Assembly (NCBI GenBank): GCA_016765495.1
Contig: JAESPV010000081.1
Location: forward strand, 1 to 64,000
Direction: 5' to 3'
Length of the DNA stretch: 64,000 bases
Source of the DNA: Desulfocapsa sp.
Lineage (GTDB): Bacteria > Desulfobacterota > Desulfobulbia > Desulfobulbales > Desulfocapsaceae
A program made the position numbers and the translations under genes. Under the pieces are notes generated by a model. It was not told where the DNA came from. It did not search any database and worked only from the letters and a program-made list of their open reading frames with translations. Positions 4,766 through 12,398 of this stretch are shown piece after piece. Each line of letters starts with the position of its first letter. Position 1 is the stretch's first letter.

Positions 4766-5089
4766 TCACTCGGCACATTCCATAGGCCTACCACAACACA
4801 CAGGCACAGCATCGCCACCCTTCAACGCCATATACTTATTACAGGTTGTACAGATAACGGTACACTCCTCAACTGCCTTATCTTCAGTATATTGAGTGGT
4901 TGCTGAAACACCTTCTATATGAAACCTTGCAAGATTCTGTTTAGAAGGAACATACTCACCAATGGCTACCATACGCTTATTAGTAGCAGCACAATCAACC
5001 ACAACCCTCCACAGGGTCTCCATGGAAGCAGTTTCCTGCTCATTCTCAGGTACAAATTCAACTACATTTTTATCTATTTGGATTTTCAT
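4766..5089 (-). CDS. Small protein with C-terminal desulforedoxin-like Cys4 site
   Basis: This is a 107-residue soluble protein, the last gene of the oxygen-defence operon. The C-terminal 35 residues carry CTTC, then about 17 residues, then CCGRPM. That is the CxxC/CCGxPM spacing of the rubredoxin-like FeS4 site of desulforedoxin and of the desulfoferrodoxin N-domain. The N-terminal 70 residues are not recognised. I chose ATG 5089 because AGGAG lies just upstream; a longer frame starting 22 codons earlier has no such site. A small electron carrier or iron-binding partner of ROO is plausible; this is inference from the motif and position. Confidence 0.75.
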   Translation of the reverse strand: MKIQIDKNVVEFVPENEQETASMETLWRVVVDCAATNKRMVAIGEYVPSKQNLARFHIEGVSATTQYTEDKAVEECTVICTTCNKYMALKGGDAVPVCCGRPMECAE

Positions 5090-5179
5090 AACTACTCCTC
5101 GCAGATTGATTGGCACTTCAGAAATTCTTTTCATCTTTTTTGCAAAGAATCTCATGAAGTGCCTATATTGGCCGATATG

Positions 5180-6379
5180 CTATTCGCCAGCGCGTTCCTT
5201 TATTGCCTTTCCTACTTTTCGGCCAAGCTCCACACACTGAACATAATCAGCATCTTCAGGCACATACTTGACCTTAAGTCCGTCATCAATAATATCAAAC
5301 TTCATCTCAGTCATTGCGGTATTAAGCAGCTTCACAGCCTCTCCAGACCAACCAAAAGACCCAAATGCTGCACCCACTTTACCCAGAGGACGAAGACCGC
5401 GCATATACATGAGGAATCCTGCCATCCGGGGAAGCAGACCATTATTTAATGTGGGACAACCAAGAACGATAGCACTTGCGTTCAGTACTTCACGCATAAC
5501 ATCGCTGCGATGATTGTACCGAAGATTGAGAAGCTGGTAAGAAATGCCTTCATCCTGTAATCCGGCGCCAACCCGTTTGGCCATTTCTTCAGTGGAATGC
5601 CACATGGTATCGTAAATGACAAGAGCCTTACCATCACTTTTTCCCTGGCTCCATTTATCATAAGCCTCAATAACCATACCAGGATTTGTACGCCAGATAA
5701 CACCATGATCAGGAGCAATCATCTTGATCTGCAGATTCATTTCCTTAACCTTGGCAATCAGTTTCTTGACCAGTGGTGAGTAGAGAGTAAGGATATTTGC
5801 ATAATATTTTGTGACTTCTTCCATAAGGATCGCTTGGTCAACTTCATCATCAAAGCGCTCACTGGTTCCAAGATGCTCACCAAAAGCATCGGAAGAAAAA
5901 AGAATCTGATCTTCCACAAGATAGGTAAACATGGAATCGGGCCAATGCAGCATCCGTGTTTCAAGGAAGGAAAGAGTCTTTTCTCCAAGGCTGACATCCT
6001 CGCCCGGCTTGGCAATCTGATAGGGCCAGTCTTCACGATGAAAATGCTGAAGCAGAGCCTTCTCACCCATCTTTGAACAGATAATTTTTTCAGGCTTAAT
6101 CAACTCGACCATATCCGGTAAACTTCCGGAATGATCCATCTCCACATGGTTCACCACAATATAATCAATCTTTTCAGGATCAACGATCTCTTTAATCCTG
6201 GCGAGCATGTCACCTTTCAGTCCTTTCTTGACGGTGTCAATAAGAGTGATTTTCTCATCCATGATAAGAAAAGCGTTATAAGTAGTTCCTCTGTTTGTGG
6301 AATACCCGTGAAAATCACGAACATCCCAATCCACAGCACCGACCCAATAAACATTTTCGGTAAGTTTAACTGGATTCAT
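5180..6379 (-). CDS. roo: Rubredoxin-oxygen oxidoreductase (flavodiiron protein)
   Basis: This cytoplasmic enzyme reduces O2 to water, and in some members NO to N2O, with electrons from rubredoxin. The N-terminal metallo-beta-lactamase-like diiron domain (about residues 1-245) shows H78-x-E80-x-D82-H83 and the later His and Asp ligands (MLHWPDS, FSSDAFGEH). The C-terminal flavodoxin domain (about 250-399) starts at ALVIYDTMWHSTEEMA and binds FMN. Length (399) is standard for the two-domain class, with no fused rubredoxin. The start is fixed by GAAGGAGG upstream. A tandem rubredoxin two genes upstream is the likely electron donor. Confidence 0.95.
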   Translation of the reverse strand: MNPVKLTENVYWVGAVDWDVRDFHGYSTNRGTTYNAFLIMDEKITLIDTVKKGLKGDMLARIKEIVDPEKIDYIVVNHVEMDHSGSLPDMVELIKPEKIICSKMGEKALLQHFHREDWPYQIAKPGEDVSLGEKTLSFLETRMLHWPDSMFTYLVEDQILFSSDAFGEHLGTSERFDDEVDQAILMEEVTKYYANILTLYSPLVKKLIAKVKEMNLQIKMIAPDHGVIWRTNPGMVIEAYDKWSQGKSDGKALVIYDTMWHSTEEMAKRVGAGLQDEGISYQLLNLRYNHRSDVMREVLNASAIVLGCPTLNNGLLPRMAGFLMYMRGLRPLGKVGAAFGSFGWSGEAVKLLNTAMTEMKFDIIDDGLKVKYVPEDADYVQCVELGRKVGKAIKERAGE

Positions 6380-6405
6380 TGCTAGTTTCCTCCTTCGGAA
6401 AAAAA

Positions 6406-6753
6406 TTAAAAATTTAAAACTTCAAAACCGTTTTCAATATATTTCGCCATTCCTGGATGACCTGACATGTCATCCAGCATGGGAATGCCTGTTTTTACAA
6501 CCTGTTCAAAAACCTGCATTTTCATAGAGCAGGCCTTACACACTCCCTCAATCAAGCCAGCATCTTTTGCCTGATTAAAAAGGCCGTGAAGAAAATGCTC
6601 CTGCTTGATAATCTCAGGAATTAAGGTAGTTGCCTCACCTTCTATTATAATTTTACATTCATGCCCTGCATCTTTCATTTCCAGTCCATTTAAAAGGACA
6701 TGGATAAAGCACATGGGCTGCCCTTGGAAAGCCACAAGCAAAATCTTCTTCAT
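6406..6753 (-). CDS. DsrE-family protein
   Basis: This small cytoplasmic protein (115 residues) has the DsrE/DsrF-like fold. The N-terminal beta strand MKKILLVAFQG is followed by a glycine- and leucine-rich helix, and the CKAC motif (about residues 71-74) sits where DsrE-type sulfur carriers hold their active cysteine. Relatives bind persulfide or transfer sulfur. It sits between the tandem rubredoxin and ROO in a tightly spaced operon, so a role in redox or sulfur handling under oxidative stress is plausible. The exact substrate is unknown. Confidence 0.8.
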   Translation of the reverse strand: MKKILLVAFQGQPMCFIHVLLNGLEMKDAGHECKIIIEGEATTLIPEIIKQEHFLHGLFNQAKDAGLIEGVCKACSMKMQVFEQVVKTGIPMLDDMSGHPGMAKYIENGFEVLNF

Positions 6754-6875
6754 ACCTATACCTGTTTTTCAAGAATTTTCAAAGAGGTAACACCAAACTC
6801 GAACTTGCGTGTGATGGCTGAGCATGGCTAAAGACAGGGACTGCCATGATGGCAGCCCCGCACAAATCGATTCGT

Positions 6876-7316
6876 TTATATTTCGCTGAAATCTTCCTTC
6901 CCTGCACCACAGACAGGACATTCATAATCGTCGGGGAGATCGTCAAAAGATGTCCCTGGAGGAATATCAAAGGCATCATCTCCCACAGCAGGGTCATACA
7001 CATATCCACAGATATCACATCTATATTTCTTCATACCGTTTTCTGCTCCTTTTATTTCAGTTTCAGTTTCAGTTTCAGTTTCAGTTTCAGTTTCAACGAC
7101 AGAGGTCGCTGCATTTTCAGCACTAACAGAACCAGGCCCCGCCAGAGGTTTGAACGCTTTTACAGTTGCGCCGCACACTGGACACTTCCATCCATCAGGA
7201 AGATCTTTAAACTGTGTTCCTTTTTTAATTTTCCCTTTACGATCCCCTCTATCCGGATCATAAATATAGCCGCAATTCATTGTTTGACACTGATACATTT
7301 CTTCTGGTGACGACAT
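6876..7316 (-). CDS. Tandem (two-domain) rubredoxin
   Basis: This is an electron-transfer protein carrying two FeS4 rubredoxin domains. Domain 1 (about residues 8-62) has an unusual CQTMNC spacing (CxxxxC) with the second pair CPVC. Domain 2 (about 95-146) is canonical, with CDIC and CPVC. The linker is a Glu-Thr repeat of six units encoded by a hexanucleotide microsatellite. Domain 2 begins at a Met codon with its own AAAGGAG site 11 bases upstream inside the reading frame, so a free 52-residue rubredoxin may also be made. The full-length start has AGAGGAG upstream. Probable partners are ROO and the rubrerythrin in the same operon. Confidence 0.92.
7032..7052 (-). promoter_or_regulatory. Internal Shine-Dalgarno and start for the second rubredoxin domain
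   Basis: On the - strand AAAGGAG (7052-7046) lies 11 bases before an in-frame ATG (7034-7032) that begins [10 protein letters not shown]. Here it is read through as the linker peptide KGAENG. It may allow a separate 52-residue rubredoxin (6876-7034). Confidence 0.55.
7055..7095. repeat. Hexanucleotide microsatellite (TTTCAG)x6 plus partial unit
   Basis: There are six perfect TTTCAG units followed by TTTCA. Because the unit is six bases, gain or loss of copies keeps the rubredoxin frame and only changes the length of the Glu-Thr linker. Confidence 0.97.
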
Positions 7317-7349
7317 TTCCCAGCTCCTCTAAATTTATCTGTATTGCTA

Positions 7350-7576
7350 TTAAGGCTTCCAAAGCCCATGGAGATTGCAACGAGTCCGTGCGCCTACTGA
7401 ATCTGCAGACACTGTAACGCTGCCCCCGGTGTATCGCAAGGATTTAGGAATTTTTTGTAACAGAAATTACCTGCAATCAGTTCAATCCACTCAATATAAT
7501 GTTCTTTGATCATGGGCGCACCACAGCAACTCATCTCACTGCTTCCTGCGTGGACGATTCCTGCCAACGTTACCAC
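7350..7576 (-). pseudogene. Desulfoferrodoxin (superoxide reductase) remnant
   Basis: The frame contains HAGSSEMSCCGAPM, like the second half of a desulfoferrodoxin N-domain. It runs directly into EHYIEWIELIAG and YKKFLNP, which are hallmarks of the superoxide reductase core. The intervening region with two His ligands is missing, as is the first CxxC pair. The frame then hits TAG at 7396-7394. In the +1 frame the C-terminal signature CNLHGLWK is present and ends at TAA (7352-7350). One extra G in the GGGGG run near 7424-7428 would rejoin the frames. So there is an internal deletion plus a frameshift in a gene that once fitted this oxygen-defence operon. Confidence 0.8.
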
Positions 7577-7644
7577 AAATATTATACTTATAAATGACTA
7601 ATTTTTCAGTCATGTTCAATTCATTATTGAACTGGAATTCATCT

Positions 7645-7686
7645 GACTCTTCTGGAGCACCCTGTTTCCGGTGGTCCAGAAGAGTC
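7645..7686. terminator. Long hairpin downstream of the peroxiredoxin gene
   Basis: GACTCTTCTGGA (7645-7656) pairs perfectly with TCCAGAAGAGTC (7675-7686), and CACC pairs with GGTG inside, with one G-G mismatch. There is no clear T-run on either strand, so it may attenuate, process or stabilise the operon transcript rather than end it. Confidence 0.5.
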
Positions 7687-7713
7687 TCAAAAACCCTTAC
7701 TGGCTATAATTCT

Positions 7714-7766
7714 TTGAGGAACGAGAACGAAATAAGGTGTTCAAGTTATTTCGTCTACGTTCTCAA
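7714..7766. repeat. Palindromic intergenic repeat, copy C
   Basis: The left end TTGAGGAACG with inner ACGAAATAAGG is matched in inverted orientation by ACGAAATAACTTGAACAC and the right end CGTTCTCAA. It is a short member of the family seen at 31548, 44108 and 60602. Its right end contains the stop codon of the peroxiredoxin gene. Confidence 0.7.
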
Positions 7767-8356
7767 GCCATATGGTCAGTCAGATATTTCGCCACACCTT
7801 CTGCAGTCGGAACCATGGCGTCATCACCTTGAATCCAGTTGGCTGGACAAACTTCACCATGCTCCTCTGTGAACTGAATGGCATCGAGCATACGCATGGC
7901 CTCTGAAACACTCCTGCCAAGAGGAAGATCATTAACTACCTGATGACGAATAACACCTTCTTTATCAATCAGATATAGACCACGAAGGGCAATCCCAATG
8001 TCCAGCAACACGCCATATTTTTTAGAGATAGACTTATCCAGATCAGCAACCAGAGGAAACTGGATCGGACCAATACCGCCATCATTTATCGCAGTATTTT
8101 TCCAGGCAAGATGACTGAAATGAGAATCAATAGAAATGCCCACAATCTCACAATTCTTCTCTTTGAACTGTTCCACAGCAGAGTTAAAGGCAAGGATCTC
8201 AGAAGGACAAACAAAGGTGAAGTCCAAAGGGTAAAAAAACAGCAAAACATGTTTTCCGCGCAAATTGGAGAGCTTAAACTCCTCATTAAAGGTGTTATCA
8301 GGCATAACTGCGATTGCGGTAAAGTCAGGGGCTTCATTGGTTACTAATGGTTTCAT
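7763..8356 (-). CDS. 2-Cys peroxiredoxin (AhpC/TSA family)
   Basis: This protein reduces hydrogen peroxide and organic peroxides in the cytoplasm. The peroxidatic cysteine C50 lies in DFTFVCPSE and the resolving cysteine C170 in GEVCPANW, giving a typical 2-Cys arrangement. Length (197 residues) is standard. The ATG follows GTGGAGACC. No AhpF or thioredoxin reductase is adjacent, so the reductant may come from thioredoxin or the rubredoxin system. The stop codon is embedded in an intergenic repeat element, which suggests that the element inserted at or reshaped the gene end. Confidence 0.95.
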   Translation of the reverse strand: MKPLVTNEAPDFTAIAVMPDNTFNEEFKLSNLRGKHVLLFFYPLDFTFVCPSEILAFNSAVEQFKEKNCEIVGISIDSHFSHLAWKNTAINDGGIGPIQFPLVADLDKSISKKYGVLLDIGIALRGLYLIDKEGVIRHQVVNDLPLGRSVSEAMRMLDAIQFTEEHGEVCPANWIQGDDAMVPTAEGVAKYLTDHMA

Positions 8357-8401
8357 GTCAGGTCTCCACTACTTTTTAGTATAGTTTTTATTTTTTCTTA
8401 C

Positions 8402-8977
8402 TTATACGTTCTCAGCCAACATCTCAAAATATGCCTGAGAATGTGCACAAGCGGGACACTTTTTGGGTGCTTTACTTCCTTTGTGGGTAAAACCACATTT
8501 AGAACAGTACCAATTTACTTCTTCATTCTTTTCAAACACTGCATTTGTTTCGATATTTTCAATCAAGGTACGATACACCTTAGCATGTTGCTTTTCAGCA
8601 ACAGCAATGGATCGCATGGTAGCCGCTACAACAGGGAAACCTTCTTCCTCTGCAATTGCTGCAAATTCAGGATACATGGTTTCATATTCATGTTCTTCAC
8701 CCGCTGCTGCGTTCTGCAGGTTTTCCATGGTACTTCCAGGGGCGATTGCAGGATATTTCGCTGTAATTTCAACCTCACCACCTTCAAGAAACTTCAGGAA
8801 AGTTTTCGCATGGGCCCGTTCCTGCTCAGCGGTACGTTCAAAAATTCCTGCAATCTGTACATACCCGTCCTTCTTGGCCACTTTTGCATAATAGGAGTAT
8901 CGGTTTCTCGCCTGAGACTCACCTGCAAAAGCAATCAGAATATTCTTTTCAGTTTTACTTCCTTTCATATCGACCAT
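8402..8977 (-). CDS. rbr: Rubrerythrin
   Basis: This is a non-haem diiron peroxidase that reduces H2O2 using electrons from rubredoxin. The ferritin-like four-helix domain (about residues 1-145) has the expected Glu and ExxH iron ligands (FAGESQARNRY, EQERAHAKTF, VAEKQHAK). The C-terminal rubredoxin-like domain has CSKC and CPAC. Length (191) is normal. The start is supported by GGAG nine bases upstream. It lies directly downstream of the regulator, and a second paralogue lies at 54639. The two clusters therefore duplicate peroxide reduction. Confidence 0.96.
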   Translation of the reverse strand: MVDMKGSKTEKNILIAFAGESQARNRYSYYAKVAKKDGYVQIAGIFERTAEQERAHAKTFLKFLEGGEVEITAKYPAIAPGSTMENLQNAAAGEEHEYETMYPEFAAIAEEEGFPVVAATMRSIAVAEKQHAKVYRTLIENIETNAVFEKNEEVNWYCSKCGFTHKGSKAPKKCPACAHSQAYFEMLAENV

Positions 8978-8996
8978 AGTTATATTCTCCGATCAA

Positions 8997-9650
8997 TCAT
9001 ACTCTGAGAGCAGTCTTTCCTTCACTGGTTATCCCATACTTACAACGTACAGGACTCTCCACATACCCTTTTTTCTTCAGTGCGGTAATCCGGCAACTCA
9101 CCTGCTTGGCCTCAAGCCCGGTGGCAGCAGCAATATCTTTTGAAGCACAAGGCCCATCACAATTATTCATTGCTTCAAGAATCTGTTTCTGCTCATCACT
9201 TAATGTATCTTTTTTACATCCACACGCCATGGTGCTCTCTCCTTTGTTTTTATTTTGAGTTTTTTGCATTTGTTCTTTCTGACATTTAGGGCACATTCCG
9301 GTTACTTCCAGACGACGCCCTGTAACTGTATACCCTTTCATATCCACAGCAGCCAGATTCACACCAGTCTCCCCAATATCAAGGTTCTCAATACGATGAC
9401 ACTGTACACAGTAAATATGATCATGATCCTCAAGCTCACTGTCAAAACGTTTTTGCCTGCCGCTGATCTCCAGTTTTCGAATCATTTTAACATCAGACAG
9501 AATCTCAAGATTCCTGTACACCGTTGCCAAGCTGATCCTTGGCATAAATTTTTTAACACGCTCATACAGCTCATCGGCTGTAAGATGTTTTTTACTTTTT
9601 TTAAGTTCCCTGAGGATCATCTCACGCTGATTAGTCATTCGTAGTTCCAT
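8997..9650 (-). CDS. Fur/PerR-family regulator fused to a Cys-containing winged-helix domain
   Basis: Residues 1-135 are a Fur-family repressor: a winged helix (ISLATVYRNLEIL recognition region), a metal-binding HDH stretch, and two CxxC zinc pairs (CVQC, CPKC). A second winged helix of 77 residues follows, beginning MACGCKKD, with several cysteines (CGC, CDGPC, SC, RC). The total of 217 residues is much longer than Fur's usual 140-150. The second domain has its own AAAGGAG site eight bases before its Met, inside the frame. I chose ATG 9650 because AAGGAGG lies just upstream; a longer frame begins nine codons earlier. As first gene of the operon it probably controls the operon and itself in response to peroxide or iron. 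Confidence 0.88.
   Translation of the reverse strand: MELRMTNQREMILRELKKSKKHLTADELYERVKKFMPRISLATVYRNLEILSDVKMIRKLEISGRQKRFDSELEDHDHIYCVQCHRIENLDIGETGVNLAAVDMKGYTVTGRRLEVTGMCPKCQKEQMQKTQNKNKGESTMACGCKKDTLSDEQKQILEAMNNCDGPCASKDIAAATGLEAKQVSCRITALKKKGYVESPVRCKYGITSEGKTALRV
9228..9245 (-). promoter_or_regulatory. Internal Shine-Dalgarno and start for the second winged-helix domain
   Basis: AAAGGAG (9245-9239 on the - strand) is eight bases from an in-frame ATG (9230-9228) starting MACGCKKD. It is read through as KGEST in the fusion. It could give a free 77-residue winged-helix protein (8997-9230). Confidence 0.55.
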
Positions 9651-10077: not shown

Positions 10078-10134
10078 CCAAGAAACGTACACGAAACAGT
10101 TACAGCATAATATGCTCAGCTTATTGCGTTCCCG
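10078..10134. repeat. Palindromic intergenic repeat, copy E
   Basis: The left end CCAAGAAACGTACACGAAACAG and the right end GCAATAAG/GGGAACG (read on the other strand) flank a central palindrome, AGCATAATATGCT. It is a diverged member of the family. The stop codon and last codons of the rhodanese-rubrerythrin gene lie within it. Confidence 0.55.
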
Positions 10135-10942
10135 CCCCTATCACTTTGTCGTACTCATCACTCAAAAATTTTAAATGCTGTTTTTCTTCACCAACCATAA
10201 ACAGAAAAAAATCTTTCGCTTCAGCGGTATCCGCCTTTTCCGCCAGACGACTGTAGAGATCAAAAGCCTGAGTCTCAAGCATCATTCCAAGCTGAATAAC
10301 ATCATCCGATGTTACTTTACGAGATTGAAAATGATTCAGGAGCTGCTGCCTGTCAAATCCACCTTCCAGGGAATCTGAGCTGACTTGTTCACCAGTAAGT
10401 TCCGCAGGGAACAGAGCTTTCATTTTAGCCTTGTGCCCCTCCTCAAACTTTGCAAGTCGCCCAAGAAGATGCTTCACATCACGTTCATCACACATTTCTG
10501 CCAACAGAAGATACAGTTGCTGTAACCCTTCTTCCATGGCATAGCTCATCCGGAAAACATCACTGAAATCTCCACTGACAAAATACTCTATACCAAAAGC
10601 CTCATCACCAACAGCCTTACCGCCTTCATAGGCGATAATCCCACCTTTCATATTATAAATTTGTTGAAAATCTGCTTTACGTAACAACTGGGCAGCAGCC
10701 TTGCTGCGCACTCCGGAGCGTCAGTAAACAAATGTTGGCTTAGTCGAATCCAACTCATCCAGCCGATCCGCCAGTTCTTTAACGGGAATTAATTTAGCAC
10801 CGGGAAGATGCTCTTTTTCATACTCCTTGGGCTGCCTGACATCGAGTAGCTGGTATTCTTCAGGGTTATGCTCTGCCATGAAGATTTTCACATCTGCCGG
10901 ACTCATGTTACTATCTGATGCAAACAAATTTCTCCAATTCAT
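10121..10942 (-). CDS. Selenoprotein: rhodanese domain fused to rubrerythrin-like diiron domain
   Basis: This is one 273-residue protein read through an in-frame UGA at 10723-10721 (residue 74). Residues 1-110 are a rhodanese domain whose active-site loop reads YURSGVRSK, with U exactly where the catalytic cysteine of CRSGxRS belongs. Strong homology continues on both sides of the UGA in the same frame. The rest is a ferritin-like diiron domain with Glu and ExxH motifs (AMEEGLQQLY, FEEGHKAKM, LETQAFDLY, GEEKQHLKF). A candidate SECIS hairpin starts 13 bases after the UGA. The ATG overlaps the stop of the upstream selenoprotein gene and has AAGGAG before it. A persulfide- or selenium-linked peroxide-reducing role is inference. 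Read conventionally, the gene would look like two broken fragments. Confidence 0.88.
10692..10707 (-). promoter_or_regulatory. Candidate SECIS hairpin for the rhodanese UGA
   Basis: On the - strand GCAGCA, loop AGGC and TGCTGC form a perfect 6-bp stem beginning 13 bases after the UGA, with Gs in the loop. Spacing and loop position resemble bacterial SECIS elements such as that of fdhF. Confidence 0.6.
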
Positions 10943-11277
10943 CCCAATATCTCCTTATACATGTCATCGTTATAACCAATATATATCTTTTCCCCGACTC
11001 GCAGAGTTGGGGCCCGCAAGTTTCCGGTACGCCCAAGGCTTACCTTCAGAATTTCTTCTTTTGATTCAACATCAGGAGTATAAACAACCGTTTTTTTCCC
11101 TCTTCCCACATGAAGAGAAACAGCATCTTTTAAAATATTCCACGCACCATCGGTCTTGATCACTTCTTTTCGCGCATCAACAGTTTCATCAACTTTTACA
11201 TTTGCTTTCTCAAGGGCCCCTTGAGCTTTGGTGCAAGAGGTTCAACCTTTACGGAAATACATCCAATCTACTTTCAT
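10939..11277 (-). CDS. Selenoprotein of the ArsC-like (thioredoxin-fold) family
   Basis: This 112-residue protein has an in-frame UGA at 11244-11242 (residue 12). The N-terminus reads WMYFRKGUTSCTKAQ, a UxxC redox motif in the first strand-loop-helix of an ArsC/Spx-type thioredoxin fold. The later GNLRAPTLRVG stretch contains the cis-Pro loop. The ATG at 11277 has AGGAG upstream, while no other good start exists downstream of the UGA. This matches the deltaproteobacterial family annotated as ArsC family (seleno)protein. Its in vivo reaction is not known; a redox partner for its two neighbours is plausible. It overlaps the rhodanese selenoprotein gene by four bases. Confidence 0.88.
11209..11225 (-). 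promoter_or_regulatory. Candidate SECIS hairpin for the ArsC-like UGA
   Basis: CTCAAGG, loop GGC and CCTTGAG form a perfect 7-bp stem starting 16 bases after the UGA on the - strand, within the usual window for bacterial selenocysteine insertion. Confidence 0.65.
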
Positions 11278-11297: not shown

Positions 11298-12398
11298 TCA
11301 CTTAAACGTTCTTATAAATTTCCTATCAATCCAATCTTTAACCAGAAAAGCAGGTTTTCCAGACATCTGGAACCACTTTTTACGCAGAACTCCCTGCCCG
11401 TTGCCAAGATTCAAGATGAGAAGGTAGTCACCGCCAGGATCAAAATCCTGAAGCGCCTCACCCTGCAGAAAGGCCTTCAGGTTATGGAACAGCACCGGAT
11501 TTTCTCGCACCGCATAGACTCCAACCTTGTCAAGGGGTTGATCTTCATACCAGATGCAATCACCGCCCCCAAAGATTTCCGGATGATCGGGACACTGTAG
11601 TTTGCTATTCACAAGCAGTCCACCTTCAGGGCCTGTTTTTAAACCAGCTTCCCGGAAAAACCGGGAAGGGTGGACGCCTGTGGCAAGAATAATAAAATCG
11701 GCCTTTTCAGCAAAGCCTGAGTCAAAATGAAGACAATTATCCAGAATGGAGAGAAGATGCCCCTTTTCCCTTATAATCACACCACTCTTTGTAAGAATCT
11801 GACGGCTTTTATTCTGTACGGACTTAGGAAATTTTGTAAGTAATGCACGCCCTGCATACAAAATAACCCTGGAGGAATGGCTGCTTTTACTTAACAGTGC
11901 TGCAACATTTCCAGCCACCTCGGTACCGGCAGGACCACCTCCAACAACAGCAACAGTAACGGATTGCCTGTGGGCAAGCTTTTCAATTTCAGCCCTGGCC
12001 AGGTAGAGACGTTCAATGGGTTTAACAGGATAAATTCGTTTGGAAATAATATCAATTTTTGGTAAATCGACATAACTTCCGGTGTTGAATGAGAGAACAT
12101 CATAGGAAATTTTTCCGCCCGACTCTAATTGTAGTTCCTGACTGGCAGGATCAACACCCACCACAGAATCCCGAAGAAAGACTCCTCCCTGATCCTCAAT
12201 GTTTTTCTTCACTGCAAAACGAATATCATCCGGCTCATAGCCACCACCCAGCATCCCTGGCCCCATGCCTGAATAATAGTGATAATCCGAGGGGCCTATC
12301 ACTGTCACCCGATGTCCCAGCTCACAAAAGACATGGATATTAGCCATGGTCACCATATGGGCATGACCAGCTCCTGCCAGGACAAGATGTTTTCCCAT
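11298..12398 (-). CDS. FAD-dependent pyridine nucleotide oxidoreductase (SelD-N-terminal/Ndh-like)
   Basis: This flavoprotein of 366 residues has an FAD-binding start LVLAGAGHAHM and a second nucleotide-binding GGGPAGTE motif near residue 155. A C-terminal FAD site reads GGGDC. The GAGHAH and YYSGMGPGMLGG motifs resemble the oxidoreductase domain that in some organisms is fused to the N-terminus of selenophosphate synthetase (TIGR03169-like), as well as NADH dehydrogenase II and sulfide:quinone oxidoreductase. I chose ATG 12398 with AGGGAG upstream over a TTG eleven codons earlier. It is first in an operon with two selenoproteins, so a selenium- or sulfur-linked electron-transfer role is likely but unproven. 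Confidence 0.85.
   Translation of the reverse strand: MGKHLVLAGAGHAHMVTMANIHVFCELGHRVTVIGPSDYHYYSGMGPGMLGGGYEPDDIRFAVKKNIEDQGGVFLRDSVVGVDPASQELQLESGGKISYDVLSFNTGSYVDLPKIDIISKRIYPVKPIERLYLARAEIEKLAHRQSVTVAVVGGGPAGTEVAGNVAALLSKSSHSSRVILYAGRALLTKFPKSVQNKSRQILTKSGVIIREKGHLLSILDNCLHFDSGFAEKADFIILATGVHPSRFFREAGLKTGPEGGLLVNSKLQCPDHPEIFGGGDCIWYEDQPLDKVGVYAVRENPVLFHNLKAFLQGEALQDFDPGGDYLLILNLGNGQGVLRKKWFQMSGKPAFLVKDWIDRKFIRTFK

Follow-up and report, generated by a model that had tools for sequence, protein, structure and literature searches.

A gene in the window, the 64,000-nucleotide stretch of Desulfocapsa sp. DNA analyzed here, encodes a rhodanese domain joined to a rubrerythrin-like diiron domain, and its in-frame UGA at codon 74 is almost certainly decoded as selenocysteine (Sec) with the help of a hairpin located downstream. 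This reading is strongly supported by the alternation of Cys and Sec among homologs, by constraint on the SECIS region, and by the sel genes of the same genome; Sec would thus be expected to be inserted at codon 74 in vivo. Besides being recoded, the gene pairs a Sec-rhodanese with a diiron domain, a combination that lacks a description in the literature searched. The features of the locus are collected in Table 1.

Table 1. Features of the fusion gene and of the two genes upstream of it (window positions).
Feature	Positions	Strand	Basis or detail
Sec-rhodanese/diiron fusion gene	10121..10942	(-)	ATG...TAA, 273 residues
In-frame UGA, codon 74, predicted Sec at rhodanese nucleophile	10721..10723	(-)	Cys/TGA in 135/135 loci
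Rhodanese domain PF00581, residues 25-105	10628..10870	(-)	Pfam
Rubrerythrin-like four-helix diiron domain PF02915, residues 129-263	10154..10558	(-)	Pfam, ligand columns
Predicted bacterial SECIS, 6 bp, loop AGGC, GCAGCA-AGGC-UGCUGC	10692..10707	(-)	Comparative
ArsC family (seleno)protein, KGUTSC motif	10939..11277	(-)	NF041106 125.4 bits, cut-off 85
In-frame UGA of ArsC-like gene, predicted Sec	11242..11244	(-)	Sec in 25/25 distinct loci
Predicted SECIS of ArsC-like gene, 7 bp, loop GGC	11209..11225	(-)	Energy -10.5, single sequence, no control
FAD pyridine-nucleotide oxidoreductase, TIGR03169-like	11298..12398	(-)	254 bits, below cut-off 310

The fusion gene contains a single in-frame TGA, in the context TFVY-U-RSGVRSK. 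An earlier reading of this locus, made from the sequence alone, had placed the UGA at the rhodanese nucleophile; rereading of the minus strand agrees, and the corresponding column holds Cys or TGA at every homologous locus. Both domains exceed their Pfam cut-offs (Rhodanese, 68 bits against 22.2; Rubrerythrin, 40 bits against 22.8), and the loop U-R-S-G-V-R-S is of the CxxGxRS type. The fusion proposed by the sequence-only reading therefore stands, although not as a one-off, since its relatives are spread widely through the phylum. That reading recognized the fusion selenoprotein but missed a second, ArsC-like selenoprotein gene that overlaps it upstream.

Among 135 homologous loci, the codon-74 column contains Cys in 100, TGA in 35, and nothing else; Cys homologs aligned at U74, which the earlier reading had suggested looking for, are thus plentiful. 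After reduction to 120 distinct proteins, 89 carry Cys and 31 UGA. Since Cys is required by one of the two scan patterns, the Sec share of loci is a biased estimate. Some match to the fusion protein occurs in 53 of 56 genomes (the genome of the window included), many of them through the rhodanese part only. Full-length fusions that match closely, at E 1e-90 or better, occur in 15 of 20 genomes of the genus, again counting its own, with TGA in 11 and Cys in four; another genome (G013) has a fragment with TGA, and both G013 and G008 additionally contain a full-length match that is remote and uninterrupted by a stop. Across the phylum, a family profile at E 1e-25 finds matches in 124 of 395 sampled genomes, the weakest of which cover the rhodanese part only. 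The best 80 of 494 relatives in named genomes bear labels including Desulfocapsa sp., Desulfobulbaceae, Desulfofustis, Desulfopila, Desulfospira, and Desulfosarcina. The UGA form also occurs in a cultured relative, Desulfospira joergensenii DSM 10085 (L114). None of the 220 matching plasmid records has a place covering 80% of the fusion query, none of 10 pattern matches in viral contigs encodes a relative of the fusion protein, and a PHROGs search gave no match at E 0.001.

Homology had also been said to run unbroken on both sides of the UGA, and dN/dS values bear this out by indicating purifying selection before and after codon 74. Compared with one relative (L010), the ratio is approximately 0.09 before the UGA, 0.14 in the next 36 codons, and 0.09 in the diiron part; compared with a Cys-form relative (L012), it is again 0.14 in the 36 codons after the UGA. 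A third comparison (L014) gives 0.61 in these codons, where dS is only 0.38, and the high ratio is attributable to this low dS, as expected from silent constraint; several other dS values in these comparisons are saturated. A pseudogene or a true stop at codon 74 is therefore very unlikely. If the UGA were a true stop, either the gene would be broken or the locus would encode two separate products, one of 73 aa and one of 196 aa that starts at a GTG (10711); both frames do exist as open reading frames. Such a stop would cut the rhodanese domain, and it is opposed by the constraint on either side of the codon, by the Cys found at this column in most loci, by silent-site constraint past the UGA, and by the sel genes of the genome, so that we consider this explanation scarcely credible. 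An annotation ending at the UGA would split the genes of the fusion family.

The predicted hairpin of the window gene starts 13 nt past the UGA, with 19 nt from the UGA to the loop. The sequence-only reading had pointed to a 6-bp hairpin 13 bases after the UGA; its position is confirmed, but it does not rise beyond chance in its own gene, as 31% of synonymous redraws do as well (0.31). Folded alone, it gives z-scores of +0.56, +0.37, and -0.68, none of them significant, and an Rfam scan of the 64-kb window returned nothing at the gathering threshold. Support for the hairpin is instead comparative. Constraints on bacterial SECIS elements (bSECIS) were taken from a figure legend of PMC13188914 and applied through our own implementation: a loop of 3-9 nt, a stem of 4-16 bp, a distance of 16-37 nt from the UGA, a G in the first two loop positions, and an energy of at most -7.5. 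Synonymous codon redraws from each gene served as the null. All 31 distinct UGA genes satisfy these constraints, with 17.7 expected from the redraws, and their mean hairpin energy is -17.9 vs. -8.7 for the redraws. Thus, the bacterial SECIS prediction that had been proposed as a check succeeds for the UGA genes taken together, although the window gene alone is not significant. Taken one by one, 13 of the 31 UGA genes reach 0.05 against their own redraws; in one (L134), the hairpin is worse than its redraws (0.63). The loop starts 18-20 nt past the UGA in 29 of the 31.

Genes of the Cys form also lie above their redraws, but less clearly: 60 of 89 qualify, compared with 46.9 expected, at mean energies of -10.7 vs. 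-8.1. The gain over redraws is -9.25 for Sec and -2.55 for Cys genes (Mann-Whitney p 5e-7; the sequences are related and the counts not independent). This difference can be followed to single base pairs, scored by gapless column count. Of the eight pairs counted, 15-26, which involves the third base of the +9 codon, shows the largest difference: it is formed in 29 of 31 UGA genes but only 10 of 89 Cys genes. The corresponding figures are 30 of 31 and 36 of 89 for pair 14-27, and 31 of 31 and 61 of 89 for pair 13-28; two of the eight are present in almost every gene of either group. At the +9 position, the Ala codon is GCT in 29 of 31 UGA genes, as opposed to eight of the 84 Cys genes with Ala there. 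The same contrast appears within the genus, where the hairpins of UGA genes average -15.7 against -6.2 for redraws (n = 11), whereas those of Cys genes average -5.0 against -6.1 (n = 4); two of these four Cys genes lack a qualifying hairpin, and the other two have a weaker one (-9.7 and -10.4).

The sequence-only reading had also called for a search of the genome for selA, selB, selC, and selD. All four are present above their cut-offs, at 598 (selA, contig C7), 370 (selB, C10), 73.9 (selC, C82), and 365 bits (selD, C74), in an assembly that is listed as 7.28% contaminated, such that these contigs could in principle be foreign. The selD gene (L056, C74:6705-7643) itself carries one TGA. Two further rhodanese genes of the genome are of note in their own right: L002 (C3:101192-101470) has an in-frame TGA in LYCAUPS, a motif resembling the CxU form NF041203, and L003 (C7:251627-251914) reads YCGGPTU, with a TGA five codons past the Cys. 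Within the genus, selB exceeds its cut-off in 15 of 20 genomes. All 34 phylum genomes with a TGA in their family match also appear in the selB list (cross-checked by eye; TGA is confirmed at column 74 for seven of these 34). As a correlate of the Sec form, selB carries little information, being present in 353 of the 395 sampled phylum genomes. Loss of the Sec system was rejected as the origin of the Cys form in the genus, given that four genomes (G002, G007, G009, and G010) combine the Cys form with selB above cut-off.

Judging from a tree of 118 distinct proteins (87 Cys and 31 Sec; a quick method without bootstrap), Sec and Cys have been swapped repeatedly across the family: at least 13 changes of state are needed, nine of them forced by well-supported branches. 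The family is thus a natural experiment, in which Sec and Cys are exchanged time and again in similar proteins, even within one genus whose Cys-form genomes retain selB. Past the codon, UGA genes are under strong constraint and Cys genes under weak constraint. Together, the repeated exchange and this contrast in constraint make the cost and the gain of Sec testable.

In the C-terminal domain, the likely diiron ligands are E137, E167, H170, E223, E253, and H256. Across 104 sequences, five of these (E137, H170, E223, E253, and H256) are invariant, as are Y144 and Y230, and E167 is conserved in at least 90%. The ligand columns match the six-ligand pattern E, ExxH, E, ExxH of ferritin-like diiron proteins, from which binding of iron by the fusion protein may be expected. 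Classical rubrerythrins carry an extra Glu three residues past the helix-3 Glu; in the fusion protein, E223 is followed at this spacing by A226, and Ala occupies the position in at least 90% of the 104 rows. Pfam and NCBIfam results up to E 0.1 contain no match of the fusion protein to a rubredoxin-like domain. The columns conserved in at least 90% of the sequences include no second Cys, so that any resolution would depend on an external thiol.

Structure models are consistent with these assignments. The AlphaFold model of the full fusion protein has a pLDDT of 89.2 and a pTM of 0.85, and the first-listed matches of its fold search are rhodanese domains. When a profile of the diiron domain was compared with solved proteins, the matches included 2fzf, TM1526 (1vjx), and symerythrin. 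Modeled alone, the C-terminal part (pLDDT 84.8) retains its helices; its fold matches are weak, comprising ferritin-like and other four-helix proteins, with none at E 0.001 and the best being 2oh3, a COG1633 protein (E 0.0043, TM 0.64).

The fusion gene lies at the end of a series of three genes on one strand, which are probably co-transcribed. The ArsC-like gene and the fusion gene share the bases ATGA, in which the TGA stop of the former overlaps the ATG of the latter, and a terminator-like hairpin was found by consensus scan at 12559-12529, upstream of the flavoprotein gene. An ArsC-like gene occurs in 25 of 120 distinct loci, always with Sec at UxSC (strings read by eye), and the ATGA overlap is kept in all 25, whether the fusion gene is of the Sec (nine) or Cys (16) form. 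Of the 105 loci with enough flank for a neighbor search, 30 (17 Cys and 13 Sec) have a relative of the flavoprotein no farther than 700 bp from the fusion gene and in the same orientation, 15 times upstream and 15 times downstream; none has one on the opposite strand. Clustering of neighboring ORFs without a query (single linkage; names assigned by eye) likewise ranks FAD oxidoreductases first, at 33 of 120 loci, with 33 on the same strand and none on the opposite one. Conversely, tblastn with the window proteins finds no adjoining flavoprotein in 75 of 105 loci and no ArsC-like gene in 83 of 105; a fixed three-part chain is thus not general. An Ndh-type FAD oxidoreductase has been named as a new selenoprotein of Desulfosediminicola in the part of PMC12013277 consulted. 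The flavoprotein was considered as a further selenoprotein and rejected as such, as the aligned stretch contains no in-frame TGA in any of the 33 neighbors.

Farther downstream on the same strand, the window encodes a Fur-family regulator, a rubrerythrin (8402-8977, exceeding the NF045767 cut-off), an AhpC/TSA peroxiredoxin, a double rubredoxin, and a flavodiiron-type protein. The regulator is nearest to PerR models (99 bits against a cut-off of 180), and a Fur gene within 700 bp on the same strand recurs at only seven of 105 loci. Some loci of the Cys form, among them those of Desulfopila and Desulfofustis, have a relative of the flavodiiron protein upstream (nine of 105). This company of genes favors a role in oxygen and peroxide defense, and it accords with the peroxide reductase that the sequence-only reading had suggested.

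Taken as a whole, the best explanation of the locus is a genuine selenoprotein acting in a short redox chain, to which we assign an even chance of being correct. The more specific proposal, that the three-gene unit is an electron route which begins at NAD(P)H and ends at the diiron site, where peroxide or O2 would be reduced, falls at or slightly short of that. Here, the FAD protein would take electrons from NAD(P)H and the ArsC-like UxxC redoxin would pass them on; the Sec of the rhodanese loop would cycle between selenolate and a selenenyl-sulfide or selenopersulfide, and the diiron centre would reduce hydrogen peroxide (or O2). The Sec-rhodanese would then play the part of the rubredoxin domain of classical rubrerythrin. 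The lack of a CxxC in the flavoprotein translation was counted against its reducing a redoxin. If this mechanism is true, reactive sulfur or selenol chemistry is tied to oxygen defense in anaerobes. A bolder version for the phylum, a selenium-sulfur rubrerythrin in which Sec-rhodanese replaces rubredoxin as the entry point for electrons or sulfane sulfur into a diiron enzyme that reduces peroxide or O2, with the flavoprotein and the second selenoprotein as suppliers in some lineages, is possible but doubtful; were it true, this chemistry would be wired directly to the diiron center.

The rhodanese domain and some of its structural relatives favor persulfide as a substrate. A rival explanation is that the Sec carries a selenopersulfide derived from polysulfide or thiosulfate, which is oxidized by the diiron domain or reduced to sulfide by the flavoprotein. 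The loop C/U-x-x-G-x-R-S is conserved; sequence and fold searches with the rhodanese part match solved proteins such as the persulfide dioxygenase-rhodanese 5ve3 and the NADH or CoA persulfide reductases 3nta, 8a56, and 6pfz; and several of the best 80 of 494 relatives are labeled Desulfocapsa. For D. sulfexigens, disproportionation of sulfur and nine rhodanese-related genes are given in the part of PMC3739170 consulted, which was counted for this rival. The flavoprotein is distantly like the sulfide:quinone reductase model (34.8 bits, cut-off 525) and the small neighbor at 6406-6753 looks DsrE-like, yet the named neighbors with a family match at 5180-9650 are of peroxide, O2, or redox-defense types, and the flavoprotein scores far too low for the listed CoA-disulfide reductase models. 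We regard a persulfide enzyme as a serious alternative, though less likely than not.

Another rival assigns the locus to selenium handling, with the rhodanese holding Se and passing it to SelD and the flavoprotein being a stand-alone version of the domain fused to SelD elsewhere. According to the portion of PMC4561486 used, fusions of SelD with an NADH-dehydrogenase-like domain are common, and the 254-bit likeness of the flavoprotein to TIGR03169 fits this picture. However, that score lies under the cut-off of 310 bits, selD is on another contig (C74), the Cys forms keep the same neighbors, and the diiron domain is left without a role; this explanation is accordingly judged highly improbable.

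Several known systems resemble parts of the fusion protein. The sections of PMC13188914 drawn on here list rhodanese-like selenoproteins, in forms 1-5, as well as ArsC-like ones, and similar lists appear in those of PMC9312934. The earlier statement that rhodanese-like selenoproteins are known in deltaproteobacteria is borne out by PMC8318568, which, in the part consulted, names a rhodanese-like domain among the selenoproteins of a marine deltaproteobacterium. The UxxG listed for forms 2 and 4 fits the U-x-x-G of the fusion protein, whereas no diiron domain is mentioned for forms 1-5 in the same sections, and the word rubrerythrin is absent from the main text (PMC13188914). Forms 2 or 4, exemplified by the records MBM9537886.1 and MCY3690685.1, may already include the fusion family, with its second domain unmentioned. 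NF041203 and NF045694 TsoB are also rhodanese-type selenoproteins, but the fusion protein misses both (22.2 bits against 115 and 12.9 bits against 805), and they correspond to CxU and UxxxxU motifs in a table of PMC13188914, unlike the fusion protein.

Rubrerythrin (NF045767) shares the PF02915 diiron domain; the fusion protein differs in having no rubredoxin-like domain match and an N-terminal rhodanese. Like the fusion protein, 5ve3, 3nta, and 8a56 hold a rhodanese in one chain with a redox enzyme; their rhodanese partner is presumably not a diiron four-helix domain, and we take their rhodanese nucleophile to be Cys. The upstream gene belongs to the NF041106 ArsC family, and here its stop overlaps the Sec-rhodanese start. 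Literature searches, whose scope did not extend to Kryukov and Gladyshev (2004) or Zhang and Gladyshev (2007), found no description of a Sec-rhodanese/diiron fusion, no paper joining selenoprotein, rhodanese, and rubrerythrin, and none joining rubrerythrin, diiron, peroxide, and selenocysteine. Sec-rhodanese and ArsC-like selenoproteins are known; the domain architecture and gene company of the fusion look new.

Some further observations concern the neighboring genes themselves. The Fur-family regulator (8997-9650, minus strand) is extended at its C terminus by approximately 90 residues, which match the winged-helix models FaeA, HTH_24, and ArsR-like. Two small genes of the redox cluster on the minus strand have no Pfam match at E 0.001: by eye, the product of 4766-5155 is Cys-rich and redoxin-like and that of 6406-6753 is DsrE-like; for each of them, L059 and L060 contain a relative that is 80-86% identical. 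Finally, 22 of 120 loci (e.g., L145) encode, no more than 400 bp from the fusion gene and in the same orientation, a membrane protein of approximately 264 residues that by eye resembles a sterol desaturase or fatty acid hydroxylase.
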